Positions 58,094-63,494 of a stretch of 64,000 bases of DNA are shown in pieces (position 1 is the first letter of the stretch; every line of letters begins with the position of its first letter). The notes below the pieces were generated by a model, which was not told the DNA's origin, made no database searches, and was given only the letters and a program-made list of their open reading frames with translations. The stretch lies in contig JANSXY010000001.1 in NCBI GenBank assembly GCA_024742695.1, positions 1 to 64,000 of the forward strand, in the 5' to 3' direction. The position numbers and the translations under genes were made by a program. This DNA comes from Paracoccaceae bacterium (lineage in GTDB: Bacteria > Pseudomonadota > Alphaproteobacteria > Rhodobacterales > Rhodobacteraceae).

Positions 58094-60112
58094 ATGGGCT
58101 ATCTACTGGGGATCGACACGGGCGGCACCTATACCGACGCGGTGCTTCTGGACGAGGCCGCGACGCGCGTCGTCGCATCCGCCAAGGCGTTGACAACGCG
58201 GCCCGATCTGGCGCGCGGCATCGGTGCGGCGATCGACGCGGCGCTGGCCGCGGGCGGGATTGCGGCGGGCGAGGTGGCGCTGGTGTCGCTGTCGACGACG
58301 CTGGCCACCAATGCGCTGGTCGAGGGGCAGGGCGGGCGCGTGGCGCTGGTGTTCATCGGCTTTTCCGCGGCGGAACTGGACCGGGCGGGGCTGGCCGAGG
58401 CGCTCAGGGGCGACCCGGTGATCGCGGTGGCCGGCGGCCACGGGCATGACGGGGGCGATGCCACGCCGCTCGATCTTGCGGCACTGGAGGCCGGGTTGGC
58501 GGCCCTGCCGGCGGGGATCACCGGTTTCGCGGTGGCCGCGGCCTTCGCCACCCGCAACCCGGCGCATGAACGCGCGGCGCGCGATCTGGTGCGCGCCCGC
58601 ACCGGCCTGCCGGTGACCTGTTCGCACGAACTGTCGGCCGGTCTGAACGGGCCGAAGCGGGCGCTGACCGCGGTTCTGAACGCGCGGCTGATCGGCCTGA
58701 TCGCGCGGCTGATCGCGGCCTGCGAGGGCCACCTGGCCCGCCTGGGGATCGCCGCGCCACTGATGGTGGTGCGCGGCGACGGTGCGCTGGTTTCGGCGGC
58801 GCTGGCGCGCGAACGGCCGATCGAGACGATCCTGTCGGGCCCCGCCGCCTCGATCGAGGGCGCGCGCTGGCTGACCGGCGAAACCGACGCGCTGGTCGCC
58901 GATATCGGCGGCACCACGACCGACGTGGCGCTGCTGCGCGGCGGCCGGCCCGAGATCGACCCGGCCGGCGCCCGTGTCGGCGGCTTCCGCACGATGGTCG
59001 AGGCGGTGGCGATGCGCACCACCGGGCTGGGCGGCGACAGCGAGGTGACGCCGGGCGAGGGGCTGGGCGCCGGGCTTCGTCTTGGCCCGCGGCGGCTGGT
59101 GCCGGTGTCGTTGCTGGCCTCCGATCATCCCCGGCTGGTGCACGACGCGCTCGACCGGGCGCTGGCCGCCGAGGTTTCGGGCGAACAGGACGGGCGCTTC
59201 GCGATCCCGATGTGGCACGGCCCGCCCCCGCCCGCCGCCGGTCCGCGCGAAGAGGCGATCCTGGAGCGGCTCGCGGCGGGCCCGGTGCGGCTGGGCGCGG
59301 CGGTGCGGACCCGGCTGGAAGAGGCCGCGCTGAACAGGCTGGTCGCGCGCGGCGAGGTCATGGTGTCGGGCGTCACGCCCTCCGATGCGGCGCATGTGCT
59401 GGGGCGGCTGTCGGCCTGGGATGGCGCGGCGGCGGAAAAGGCGCTGGCGCTGTTCGCCAGACGACGCGACGCCAGCGGCGAGCGGATCGCGCCGGATGCG
59501 CGGACGATGGCCGGGCGGGTGATCGACCAGTTGACCCGGCAGACCGTCACCTGCCTGCTGGAAGCCGCGTTCGCCGAGGATCGCCGCGACTGGGACGAGC
59601 GGCCCGAGGCGCTGGCGGCGCACCCGCTGACGCTGGCCGGGCTTGACGGGCACGCGGGGATCGTCCGCACGACGCTGTGCCTGGGCGTGCCGGTCGTCGG
59701 GCTTGGCGCGTCCGCGCCCAGCTACTACGGCGCGGTGGGCGCGCGGCTGGGCACCCGGATGGTGCTGCCCGACCATGCCGGGGTGGCGAACGCGATCGGC
59801 GCGGTGGTGGGGCAGGTGGCGATGCATGTCGAGGGCACCGTCACCTCGCCCGGTGCCGGGCGGTTCGTCGCGCATCTGCCCGGCGGGCCGAAACCCTTCG
59901 CCGAAGCCGGCGCCGCGATGGCCGCGCTGGAGGCCGCGCTGTCGGACGAGGCCGCGCGCCGGGCCCGCGCCGCCGGGGTCGAGGCCGCGCGGCTGTCGGT
60001 CGAACGGGCGATCGACGAAGCCGAGATCGAGGGCCAGCCGGTGTTCATCGAAGGCCGCCTGCGGGTCACCGCGCGGGGCCGGCCGCGGATCGCCACCCGG
60101 GCGCCCGACTGA
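58094..60112 (+). CDS. hyuA: hydantoinase/5-oxoprolinase A-type protein
   Basis: The 672-residue protein has the ASKHA-like ATP-binding N terminus GYLLGIDTGGTYTDAVLLDE, then VADIGGTTTDVALLRGG, and the C-terminal GLGASAPSYYGAVGARLGTR region of HyuA/OplahA. Such proteins use ATP to open hydantoin, oxoproline or related rings and normally require a HyuB partner. No HyuB gene lies in the window. It precedes a branched-chain ABC importer operon in the same direction, so the imported compound may be its substrate. Confidence 0.88.
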   Translation: MGYLLGIDTGGTYTDAVLLDEAATRVVASAKALTTRPDLARGIGAAIDAALAAGGIAAGEVALVSLSTTLATNALVEGQGGRVALVFIGFSAAELDRAGLAEALRGDPVIAVAGGHGHDGGDATPLDLAALEAGLAALPAGITGFAVAAAFATRNPAHERAARDLVRARTGLPVTCSHELSAGLNGPKRALTAVLNARLIGLIARLIAACEGHLARLGIAAPLMVVRGDGALVSAALARERPIETILSGPAASIEGARWLTGETDALVADIGGTTTDVALLRGGRPEIDPAGARVGGFRTMVEAVAMRTTGLGGDSEVTPGEGLGAGLRLGPRRLVPVSLLASDHPRLVHDALDRALAAEVSGEQDGRFAIPMWHGPPPPAAGPREEAILERLAAGPVRLGAAVRTRLEEAALNRLVARGEVMVSGVTPSDAAHVLGRLSAWDGAAAEKALALFARRRDASGERIAPDARTMAGRVIDQLTRQTVTCLLEAAFAEDRRDWDERPEALAAHPLTLAGLDGHAGIVRTTLCLGVPVVGLGASAPSYYGAVGARLGTRMVLPDHAGVANAIGAVVGQVAMHVEGTVTSPGAGRFVAHLPGGPKPFAEAGAAMAALEAALSDEAARRARAAGVEAARLSVERAIDEAEIEGQPVFIEGRLRVTARGRPRIATRAPD

Positions 60113-60142
60113 AAAAAAGGCCTCGTCCGCCAGGACGAGGCC
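60112..60142 (-). terminator. rho-independent terminator on the minus strand
   Basis: A perfect 10-bp stem (GGCCTCGTCC / GGACGAGGCC) with a 4-base loop lies directly after the hyuA stop. The run of seven A at 60112-60118 is a T tract only when read on the minus strand. It therefore terminates a leftward transcript. Confidence 0.75.
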
Positions 60143-60205
60143 GCGAGTTGAGCGCAGACACCTGGACCCCCAGGTGATCCCATCCTGCCAAGCCGCCGGC
60201 GTTCC
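60112..60205 (-). ncRNA. candidate small RNA ending at the minus-strand terminator
   Basis: No protein gene lies leftward of here to explain the terminator. Read leftward, a 7-bp hairpin (60159-60165 with 60170-60176) precedes the terminator by ~17 bases. The whole would be a ~90-nt structured RNA. The 5' end is a guess; no strong promoter was found. Confidence 0.35.
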
Positions 60206-60405
60206 CGGGATCGGCGATAGGTGTGGTTCGGCGGCAAAGTGTATCTGGCGGATGCGCGAAAGTGTGCCGGCCTCCCGGCCTTGCGGCGGGCGACGGGGGC
60301 AGGCCGCGCCCGCGCCCAACCCGCCGGCGGGGCCGAAAACCCACTGGACGCGCGCGCGTGGGTGGGCATCATGGCGGCCAAGATCGCAAAACAGGGAGAG
60401 GACCG

Positions 60406-61548
60406 ATGAAGAGAATCCTGACGGGGGTCGCCGCGGCGGCGCTGATCGCGGCAGGCGCGGCACAGGCCGAGGGCGTGAAGGTCGGCATGATCACCACGCT
60501 GTCGGGCGGCGGCGCCGGCCTTGGCATCGACGTGCGCGACGGGTTCCAGCTGGCGCTGAAGATGGCCGGCGATGCCGGCGCGGCGGTCGACCTCGTGGTC
60601 GAGGACGATCAGCAAAAGCCCGACGTGGCGGTGCAGCTGGCCGACAAGATGATCCAGGCCGAACAGGTCGACGTGCTGACCGGCATCATCTGGTCGAACC
60701 TCGCGATGGCGGTGGTTCCGGCGGCGACGGCGCAGGGCAAGTTCTACCTGTCGCCGAATGCCGGGCCTTCGGCGCTGGCGGGCGCGAACTGCCATCCGAA
60801 CTACTTCAACGTCGCCTGGCAGAACGACAACCTGCACGAGGCGGCCGGCGCCTACGCCAACTCCGCCGGCTTCACCAACAGCTTCATCCTCGCGCCGAAC
60901 TACCCGGCGGGCACCGATGCGCTGGCCGGCTACAAGCGGTTCTACGAAGGCGCGCTGGCCGGCGAGGTCTATACCCAGCTCGGCCAGACCGACTATGCCG
61001 GGGAGATCGCGCAGATCCGCGCCTCGGGCGCCGACAGCGTGTTCTTCTTCCTGCCCGGCGGCATGGGCATCGCCTTCATGAAGCAATACGCGGAATCGGG
61101 CGTGGACATCCCGCTCGTCGGCCCCGCCTTCAGCTTCGACCAGGGCATCCTGCAGGCCGTCGGCGCGGCGGCGCTGGGGGTCAAGAACACCTCGCAATGG
61201 TCCAAGGATCTCGACAACGCCGCGAACCAGGCCTTCGTCGCGGCCTTCCAGGAGGAATACGGGCGGCTGCCCTCGCTCTATGCCAGCCAGGGCTATGACA
61301 CCGCCAACCTTCTGCTGTCGGCGATGGCCAAGGCCGACGTGGCCGACCAGGACGCGTTCCGCGCGGCGCTGGAAGAGGCCGATTTCGCCTCCACCCGCGG
61401 TGATTTCGCCTTCAACAGCAACCATCACCCGATCCAGGACATCTATGTCCGCGAGGTGATCCAGGAAGGCGACGTCTTCACCAACAAGGTGATCGGCGTG
61501 GCGCTGGAAGATCGCGGCGACGCCTACGCCGATCAGTGCAACATGTGA
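60406..61548 (+). CDS. branched-chain-type ABC substrate-binding protein (LivJ/AmiC class)
   Basis: The 380-residue type I periplasmic binding protein has a signal peptide (ILTGVAAAALIAAGAAQAEG, cleavage near residue 20). The first strand is VKVGMITTLSGGGAGLGIDV, and DNLHEAAGAYANSAGFTNSF, LAPNYPAGTD and FFLPGGMGIAFMKQYAESGV follow. ATG 60406 follows GGGAGAGGACC. The family binds amino acids, amides, urea and aromatic acids; the hyuA neighbour suggests a cyclic amide or its product. An 11-bp hairpin follows. Confidence 0.9.
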   Translation: MKRILTGVAAAALIAAGAAQAEGVKVGMITTLSGGGAGLGIDVRDGFQLALKMAGDAGAAVDLVVEDDQQKPDVAVQLADKMIQAEQVDVLTGIIWSNLAMAVVPAATAQGKFYLSPNAGPSALAGANCHPNYFNVAWQNDNLHEAAGAYANSAGFTNSFILAPNYPAGTDALAGYKRFYEGALAGEVYTQLGQTDYAGEIAQIRASGADSVFFFLPGGMGIAFMKQYAESGVDIPLVGPAFSFDQGILQAVGAAALGVKNTSQWSKDLDNAANQAFVAAFQEEYGRLPSLYASQGYDTANLLLSAMAKADVADQDAFRAALEEADFASTRGDFAFNSNHHPIQDIYVREVIQEGDVFTNKVIGVALEDRGDAYADQCNM

Positions 61549-61554
61549 TCTGAT

Positions 61555-61581
61555 CCGGGGGCCGGCACGTCCGGCCCCCGG
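61555..61581 (+). promoter_or_regulatory. intercistronic hairpin after liv-type binding-protein gene
   Basis: Perfect 11-bp arms CCGGGGGCCGG and CCGGCCCCCGG enclose loop CACGT, 6 bases after the stop. No T run follows. It has the same position and arm length as those at 10200 and 30016. Confidence 0.7.
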
Positions 61582-61599
61582 ACACCGGGGGCCCTTCCG

Positions 61600-62520
61600 A
61601 TGTCCGCGCTGCTTGTCGCCGAGCAGGTCCTCAACGGCCTGCAATACGGCATGATGCTGTTCCTGATGGCTGCCGGGCTGACGCTGGTGTTCGGCGTCAT
61701 GGGTCTGATCAATCTCGCGCATGGCGCGCTTTACATGACCGGCGCCTTCGCCTGCGCGGCGGTCGCCGCGGCGACGGGATCGTTCTGGCTGGGCCTCGCC
61801 GCCAGCCTGGCGGCGGCGGCGTCGGCCGGCGCGCTGGTCGAACTCGCGGTGATCCGGCGGCTTTACGCGCGCGACCATCTCGACCAGGTGCTGGCGACCT
61901 TCGCGCTGATCCTCGTGTTCTCCGAAACCACGCGCTGGCTGTTCGGCTCCTTCCCGCTCTACCTGTCGCTGCCCGAGGCGCTTTCGGGCGCGGTCGACCT
62001 GCCGGGCGGGCTGGTCTATCCCGCGTTCCGGCTGGCGATCATCGGCATCGGCTTCGCCGTCGCGGTGTTCCTGTTCTGGCTGATCGGCCGCACCCGGCTG
62101 GGCATCCGGATCCGCGCCGGCGAGGCGGATCGCGAGATGATCGCGGCGCTCGGTGTCGATATCGGCCGGCTTTACACGCTGGTCTTCGCGCTTGGCGCGG
62201 CGCTGGCGGGGCTGGCCGGGGCGCTGGTGGGCACGATCCAGTCGGTGCAGGTGGGGATGGGCGAACCGGTGCTGATCCTCGCCTTCGTGGTGATCGTGAT
62301 CGGCGGCATCGGCTCGATCCGCGGGGCACTGGTCGGCGCGCTGGTGGTCGGGATGACCGACACGCTGGGCAAGGCGTTCCTGCCGCAGCTTTTCGCGCTG
62401 GCGATGGAGCCCTCGGCGGCACGCGCGGTGGGCTCGGCGCTGGCCTCGATGCTGATCTACATCCTGATGGCCGCGGTTCTGATCGTGCGGCCGCAGGGCC
62501 TGTTCGGGGCGCGGGCATGA
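61600..62520 (+). CDS. livH: branched-chain-type ABC permease (LivH-like)
   Basis: The 306-residue permease has about eight helices. MAAGLTLVFGVMGLINLAHG near the N terminus is the LivH hallmark, with GIRIRAGEADREMIAALGVD as coupling region and VGMTDTLGKAFLPQL near the end. It pairs with the LivM-like protein, whose start overlaps its stop. Confidence 0.92.
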   Translation: MSALLVAEQVLNGLQYGMMLFLMAAGLTLVFGVMGLINLAHGALYMTGAFACAAVAAATGSFWLGLAASLAAAASAGALVELAVIRRLYARDHLDQVLATFALILVFSETTRWLFGSFPLYLSLPEALSGAVDLPGGLVYPAFRLAIIGIGFAVAVFLFWLIGRTRLGIRIRAGEADREMIAALGVDIGRLYTLVFALGAALAGLAGALVGTIQSVQVGMGEPVLILAFVVIVIGGIGSIRGALVGALVVGMTDTLGKAFLPQLFALAMEPSAARAVGSALASMLIYILMAAVLIVRPQGLFGARA

Positions 62521-63494
62521 ACCGCGCGGCGATCATCGACGCGGGCCTCTTCGCCGCGCTGGTCGCCGTGGCGCTTGTCGCCCAGGCGGCGGGAGAGCCC
62601 TTCGTGATCACCCTGGCCACCAAGGCGGCGATCTTCGCGCTGGCCGGGGTGGGGCTGAACCTCGTTCTGGGTTACGGCGGGCTGGTGTCCTTCGGCCACG
62701 CGGCCTTCTTCGGGATCGGCGGCTATGTCGCGGGTATCCTTGCCAGCCACGCGATGTCCGGCGCGCCGGTGGCGACCTTTCCCTTCACCATGCAGGGCAC
62801 CAACGAGATGCTGGCGATCTGGCCGATGGCGATGGCCGTGGCCGGGCTGGTGGCGCTGGCGATCGGCGCGCTCAGCCTGCGCACCTCGGGCGTCTACTTC
62901 ATCATGGTCACGCTCGCCTTCGCGCAGATGCTCTATTATTTCGCGATCTCCTGGCCGGCCTATGGCGGCGAGGACGGGCTGTCGTTCTACGTGCGCAATA
63001 CCTTTCCGGGCCTCAACACCTTCGATCCGATCCAGTTCTTCGCGATCGTCGCGGTTCTGCTGGGCCTTGCCCTTGGCCTGTCGGCGCTGATCGTGCGGTC
63101 GCGCTTCGGCCTGGCGCTGCGCGCGGCGCGGGCGGCGCCGGGGCGGGCGGTGGCGGTGGGGATCCGGCCGTTCGGCATCCGGCTCACCGCCTTCGTGATC
63201 TCGGGGATGATCACCGGGCTGGCCGGCGCGCTCTACGCCGATCTCAACCGCTTCGTCAGCCCCGCGATGCTCAGCTGGCACATGTCGGGCGAGATCATGG
63301 TCTTCGTGATCCTTGGCGGCGTCGGGCGGCTGGCGGGCCCCTTGGCCGGCGCCGGCGCCTATATCCTGCTCGAACACCTGCTGGGCGGGGTCAGCGAGTA
63401 CTGGCAGGCGCTGCTTGGGCTCTTGCTGCTGGTGATCGTGCTGTTCGCGCCGGGCGGGATCGTCGGCATGCTGAACGGGGGGCGCGGGCGATGA
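62517..63494 (+). CDS. livM: branched-chain-type ABC permease (LivM-like)
   Basis: The 325-residue permease has ALAGVGLNLVLGYGGLVSFG then HAAFFGIGGYVAG, typical of LivM. The coupling segment is [20 protein letters not shown]. Overlaps LivH by ATGA and the LivG-like ATPase by ATGA. Confidence 0.92.
   Translation: MNRAAIIDAGLFAALVAVALVAQAAGEPFVITLATKAAIFALAGVGLNLVLGYGGLVSFGHAAFFGIGGYVAGILASHAMSGAPVATFPFTMQGTNEMLAIWPMAMAVAGLVALAIGALSLRTSGVYFIMVTLAFAQMLYYFAISWPAYGGEDGLSFYVRNTFPGLNTFDPIQFFAIVAVLLGLALGLSALIVRSRFGLALRAARAAPGRAVAVGIRPFGIRLTAFVISGMITGLAGALYADLNRFVSPAMLSWHMSGEIMVFVILGGVGRLAGPLAGAGAYILLEHLLGGVSEYWQALLGLLLLVIVLFAPGGIVGMLNGGRGR

Follow-up and report, generated by a model that had tools for sequence, protein, structure and literature searches.

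The analysed window is the whole 64,000-nucleotide stretch of DNA, and the site described here lies where a hyuA-like gene ends, to the left of a livK-like gene on the same strand. The features of the site, from left to right, are:

58094-60112, plus strand: hyuA-like gene (hydantoinase/oxoprolinase), the 3' flank of which would be antisense to a leftward RNA
60112-60118, minus strand: U7 tract of the leftward terminator, read from the sequence, its last base pairing with the last A of the hyuA stop codon
60119-60142, minus strand: terminator hairpin with a perfect 10-bp stem and a 4-nt loop, approximately -20.6 kcal/mol
60143-60158, minus strand: linker between the two hairpins, read from the sequence as TCTGCGCTCAACTCGC, without the CCTCCCTG motif of SorX/SorY-type sRNAs
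60159-60176, minus strand: upstream hairpin or palindrome with a perfect 7-bp stem, CACCTGG-GGGT-CCAGGTG, at chance level
60344-60372, plus strand: candidate liv promoter to the right of the hairpins, CTGGAC-17-CATCAT or TGGACG-16-CATCAT
60406-61548, plus strand: livK-like substrate-binding protein gene, the first of an ABC transporter operon to the right

On the minus strand, the terminator reads GGCCTCGTCC-TGGC-GGACGAGGCC followed by TTTTTTT. The stem is GC-rich and the U tract follows it directly, as in intrinsic terminators. The hyuA stop codon (TGA) occupies 60110-60112 and is overlapped by the T tract by one base. When the 296-nt gap between hyuA and livK was shuffled 2000 times with its dinucleotides preserved, a perfect 10-bp stem with T7 never arose, and the exact stem was present in a single copy in the genome search. 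Three terminator-like sites were present between 58 and 62 kb, of which the hyuA-end site had both the longest stem and the longest T tract. The leftward terminator is genuine, in agreement with the first-pass annotation, which had described a strong leftward intrinsic terminator with its T tract overlapping the hyuA stop codon. The element is one-sided, as neither hairpin has a T tract behind it on the rightward strand; for the terminator stem, that strand has at most two T in the seven bases after it and seven A before it. An origin as a repeat family or mobile copy was considered and rejected, because the genome has a single exact copy of the stem and a single mismatch-free copy of the palindrome of the upstream hairpin. 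A second BLASTN place in the same genome (C29:44065-44121, 76%) showed by eye no such hairpin with T7, and no match to the element was found in the plasmid collection.

The second hairpin, which had been placed upstream in the transcript sense, was indeed present at 60176-60159. However, at least one perfect 7-bp stem was found in 23% of the gap shuffles, so this hairpin is not above chance. The 60 nt preceding the terminator folded no better than those preceding other terminators, 44% of 99 being at least as stable.

According to the codon-usage gene caller, livK and further plus-strand genes lie to the right of the terminator, and no minus-strand gene precedes it within 5.8 kb, which confirms that the terminator has no leftward gene before it. 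A 92-codon minus-strand ORF listed mechanically at 60344-60066 overlaps the terminator and was not called as a gene. For the candidate liv promoter the best score was 7.5, a value that is weak on its own, being reached by 13% of random windows. On the minus strand, no promoter-like site scored above random, the best being equalled by 88% of 293-nt and 68% of 165-nt random windows. This score does not decide the matter, because promoter scores were also unremarkable (32-74%) at four of six other sRNA-like loci.

Terminator-like hairpins, taken as intergenic hairpins with E ≤ -9 and at least 5 T of 7, were collected from 2.064 Mb of the genome with 1935 genes called by codon usage (a first part of 1.264 Mb with 1199 genes and a second of 0.8 Mb with 736). 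The sample contained 106 such sites, about half of which may be chance, as an A-tract control gave 31 sites in the first part and 22 in the second. An uninterrupted T7 was present at seven sites; the other 99 had shorter or interrupted T tracts. The A-tract control for T7 sites gave none in the first part and one in the second at E ≤ -9, and none at E ≤ -14. The CCTCCCTG linker was found at three of the seven T7 sites compared with one of the 99 sites with 5-6 T (Fisher 7e-4), in a post hoc comparison of seven sites among which the hyuA-end site itself lacks the linker. With the hyuA-end site and the previously known C49 locus omitted, the linker was present at 2/5 versus 1/99 (p 0.005). The second sample was a weak test of this association, since its T7 sites were C49 and two that lack the linker, C11:140108 and C7:98386. 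The other T7 sites, together with one further locus carrying the linker, are:

C22:89622-89642 (L249 9578-9648), plus strand: SorX sRNA (RF02784), 70.3 bits against a cut-off of 46.6, with T7 and linker
C28:159251-159333 (L196; C28:159265), minus strand: SorX-like sRNA locus, orphan, with T7 and linker; SorX 30.9 and suhB 26.6 bits, below cut-offs
C49:48572-48635 (L198; C49:48587), minus strand: SorY-like locus with T7, the CCTCCCTG linker and a GGCC terminator; SorY 54.2 and SorX 44.1 bits, below cut-offs
C28:258803-258881 (L197; C28:258818), minus strand: orphan T7 terminator of a candidate unclassified sRNA, without the CCTCCC linker, with a promoter-like TTGGCC-17-TATAAC 55 nt before the stem
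C11:140108: T7 site 167 nt after a sense gene, counted by the script as an orphan as the sample ended there
C7:98386: T7 site with a weak hairpin
C28:221107-221191 (L200), minus strand: locus 41 nt downstream of a sense gene, carrying both the CCTCCCTG linker and a GGCC terminator

The promoter score at C28:258818 (8.4) was the best of the loci tried and is reached by 0.2% of random windows.

The hyuA-end locus was compared with known sRNA families. With SorX and SorY of Rhodobacterales it shares an upstream hairpin, a short linker and a GGCC-rich terminator with U7. It differs from them in having no ACCUCCCUGUUGGAC linker, no Rfam match and no conservation: no covariance match to SorX (RF02784) or SorY (RF02651) was obtained at E ≤ 5, and the CCUCCCUG linker that precedes the SorX/SorY terminator is absent, the linker here being UCUGCGCUCAACUCGC. 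The suhB/mmgR RNA (RF00519), which according to PMC1273637 was originally described as also transcribed opposite a gene, has a short 5' helix and a terminator in common with the locus and gave a weak match across all 77 positions. The score, however, was 21.6 bits against a gathering score of 41, and the CUCCC linker is absent. Five genome loci, a list that does not contain the hyuA-end locus, scored 21.5-26.6 bits with the suhB model, and the CCTCC linker was present in four of these. Membership of suhB or isrD was therefore rejected, both scores being below the cut-offs, and no Rfam match above a cut-off was obtained.

Relatives of the locus were examined from the hyuA side in 110 hyuA loci including the window's own, namely 80 of the 426 named-record relatives listed and the best 30 of 125 matching whole genomes, with 104 distinct flanks. 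The flanks were scanned from -15 to +200 bases around the stop codon (two loci had fewer than 200 bases). In this stretch the T7 terminator was found at 0 of the 109 other hyuA loci listed, and only at the window's own. A leftward hairpin with 4-5 T was present at 18 of the 109.

From the livK side, 29 of 127 other matching genomes were compared, giving 28 usable upstream flanks (L135 was incomplete). When the gap was aligned to these flanks by BLASTN, L122 alone fell below E 0.1, with matches of 35 and 33 bases at 77-79% identity. These lie at 60342-60376 and 60287-60317, outside the hairpins. The first spans the candidate liv promoter, similar letters thus being present upstream of livK in that locus.

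Across the family, the 116-nt element was searched by BLASTN (E ≤ 0.01) against 295 genomes, each of its own genus; the window's genus is represented by one genome, so the comparison is one between genera. Matches were found in 24/295 genomes including its own (23/294 in other genera), and those in other genomes were 19-43 bases long and scattered over different parts of the query. The same search with the SorX-like locus C28:159265 as control gave 213/295 including its own (212/294 in other genera), mostly through its linker and terminator, so these matches are perhaps other members of the class. BLASTN can therefore detect conserved sRNAs of the SorX-like kind, and the hyuA-end locus is not one of them. 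Conservation in relatives, a usual though not necessary feature of sRNA genes, was thus absent from the hyuA, livK and BLASTN comparisons across genera. This does not exclude an sRNA, since 8 of the 16 sRNAs confirmed in Paracoccus denitrificans lacked homologues elsewhere according to PMC5107571; the same source gives 83 of 167 RNA-seq sRNAs in that species as antisense.

Because the uninterrupted T7 terminators in the sampled half-genome are enriched for sRNA-type linkers, the best single reading is a short RNA, specific to the lineage, that would run leftward in antisense to the 3' flank of hyuA and have its 3' end in this element. We give this reading, in which transcription is inferred, a probability of about 0.45. 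Against it count the SorX/SorY-type linker missing at the site, a minus-strand promoter score within the random range, the chance-level upstream hairpin, the unremarkable fold before the terminator and the short, scattered matches in other genera. A short non-coding transcription unit would read leftward from the hyuA-livK gap and end in U7 at the hyuA stop codon, with a product of approximately 70-290 nt depending on the putative start. A U7 tail is of the kind carried by Hfq-type sRNAs, which are said, in work attributed to Otaka and colleagues in 2011, to need a tail of about seven U; the predicted RNA may likewise bind Hfq. The RNA would be fully complementary to any 3' flank that the hyuA mRNA carries, and could pair with the hyuA mRNA or with a hyuA-liv read-through transcript, exposing the duplex to double-strand cleavage. 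Of the leftward small RNA of about 90 nt that had been predicted to end at the hyuA stop, the RNA itself is thus retained as the best single reading on the strength of the T7/linker enrichment (3/7 versus 1/99), while its length and promoter gained no support, the promoter score being no better than random and the second hairpin being at chance level. A bolder version of this reading is considered unlikely: here the element would belong to an Hfq-type sRNA gene that arose recently in this lineage, lacks the CCUCCC seed and is made opposite the 3' flank of hyuA, and uninterrupted U7 terminators would mark sRNA genes in this genome and not mRNA ends.

The main rival is that the terminator blocks antisense transcription, halting stray leftward transcripts (such as those arising at the back of the liv promoter region) ahead of hyuA, with no defined functional RNA product. 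The position exactly at the hyuA stop would suit this role, as would a linker that is neither conserved nor of a known family and the lack of a minus-strand promoter in the search. Orphan terminator-like sites are also common in the sample, at 42/106, a count that includes the miscalled C11:140108 and of which the A-tract control gives 24 by chance (11 + 13). Counting against the small-RNA reading, orphan position among T7 sites was not enriched at E ≤ -9 (3/7 after correction versus 38/99, p = 1); at E ≤ -14 it was found at 4/5 versus 11/53, an uncorrected count in which one of the four is the miscalled C11 site. However, 99 of the 106 sampled sites have shorter or interrupted T tracts, and the uninterrupted T7 is the form found at sRNA-type loci. 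There is also no apparent reason why the window's hyuA, alone among the 110 loci listed, would need such a terminator. Blocking of antisense transcription is regarded as possible but less probable than a short leftward RNA.

The neighbourhood of hyuA bears on a second alternative, namely that the terminator is a relic of a leftward gene or sRNA that once lay on the right of hyuA and disappeared as hyuA became the neighbour of the liv operon. livK was found at the window's locus and at 0 of the 109 others listed, within the available flank (12 of 110 had less than 1.4 kb downstream). Instead, a tRNA gene was found by ARAGORN within 320 nt downstream of the hyuA stop in 46 of the 110 loci listed (44 tRNA-Met and 2 tRNA-Ser), and is absent at the window's locus. 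The hyuA-liv junction therefore looks lineage-specific, in line with a relic. The site nearest in kind among the hyuA loci listed, a two-sided terminator approximately 20 nt after the hyuA stop in locus L087, is also consistent with this. Against it, stem and T7 have both stayed perfect and show no decay, and a relic is considered improbable.

Still more improbable is a rightward element, a 3' stem-loop that stabilises or ends the hyuA mRNA with the A tract incidental or aiding termination: the fold is better relative to shuffles on the rightward strand (z = -4.46 versus -2.61 leftward, so that folding gives the leftward direction no advantage) and A tracts are, according to PMC7566282, also enriched before in-line terminators in Zymomonas mobilis, but the plus strand has no T tract after either hairpin and no more than two T in the seven bases after the stem. 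The first-pass annotation had itself raised the case of a hairpin acting only on rightward transcription; the sequence does not suggest this, as the rightward T tract is missing. Bidirectional intrinsic terminators between convergent genes (Ju et al. 2019, as cited in PMC7566282 and PMC9438474) share with the hyuA end the layout of an A tract and hairpin directly after the stop codon. The hyuA-end site differs in having a T tract on one strand only and no convergent gene, its neighbours being co-directional.

If the predicted leftward RNA is transcribed, the family would gain a further species-specific sRNA, antisense or trans-acting, here beside a branched-chain amino acid-type ABC transporter operon, and judged from its sequence the hyuA-end locus is a candidate for a further sRNA of an already known kind. 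In R. sphaeroides, SorX is listed with the target potA in PMC9438474, and the title of a reference in PMC7074977 speaks of an effect of SorY on a metabolite transporter. The targets named for the predicted RNA, hyuA or the liv transcript, gained no support: when the linker or 5' part was paired with 1195 gene starts of the first sample, hyuA ranked 626 and livK 1157, so that neither stood out.

Possibly more useful is the methodological point that, GC-rich as this genome is, an uninterrupted T7 at a terminator seems to single out sRNA genes in it, on a count of seven sites so far. Used as a criterion, T7 would give a cheap listing of sRNA candidates that are missed by comparative searches.

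Two observations concern the transporter itself. In another genus, a livK relative adjoins a tryptophan 2,3-dioxygenase gene (L120, PF03301), and another livK relative (L123) adjoins a lone Lrp/AsnC ligand-binding-domain gene (PF01037), with similar neighbours seen elsewhere by eye. These neighbours hint that the substrate of the transporter encoded at 60406-63494 is related to tryptophan or its breakdown.
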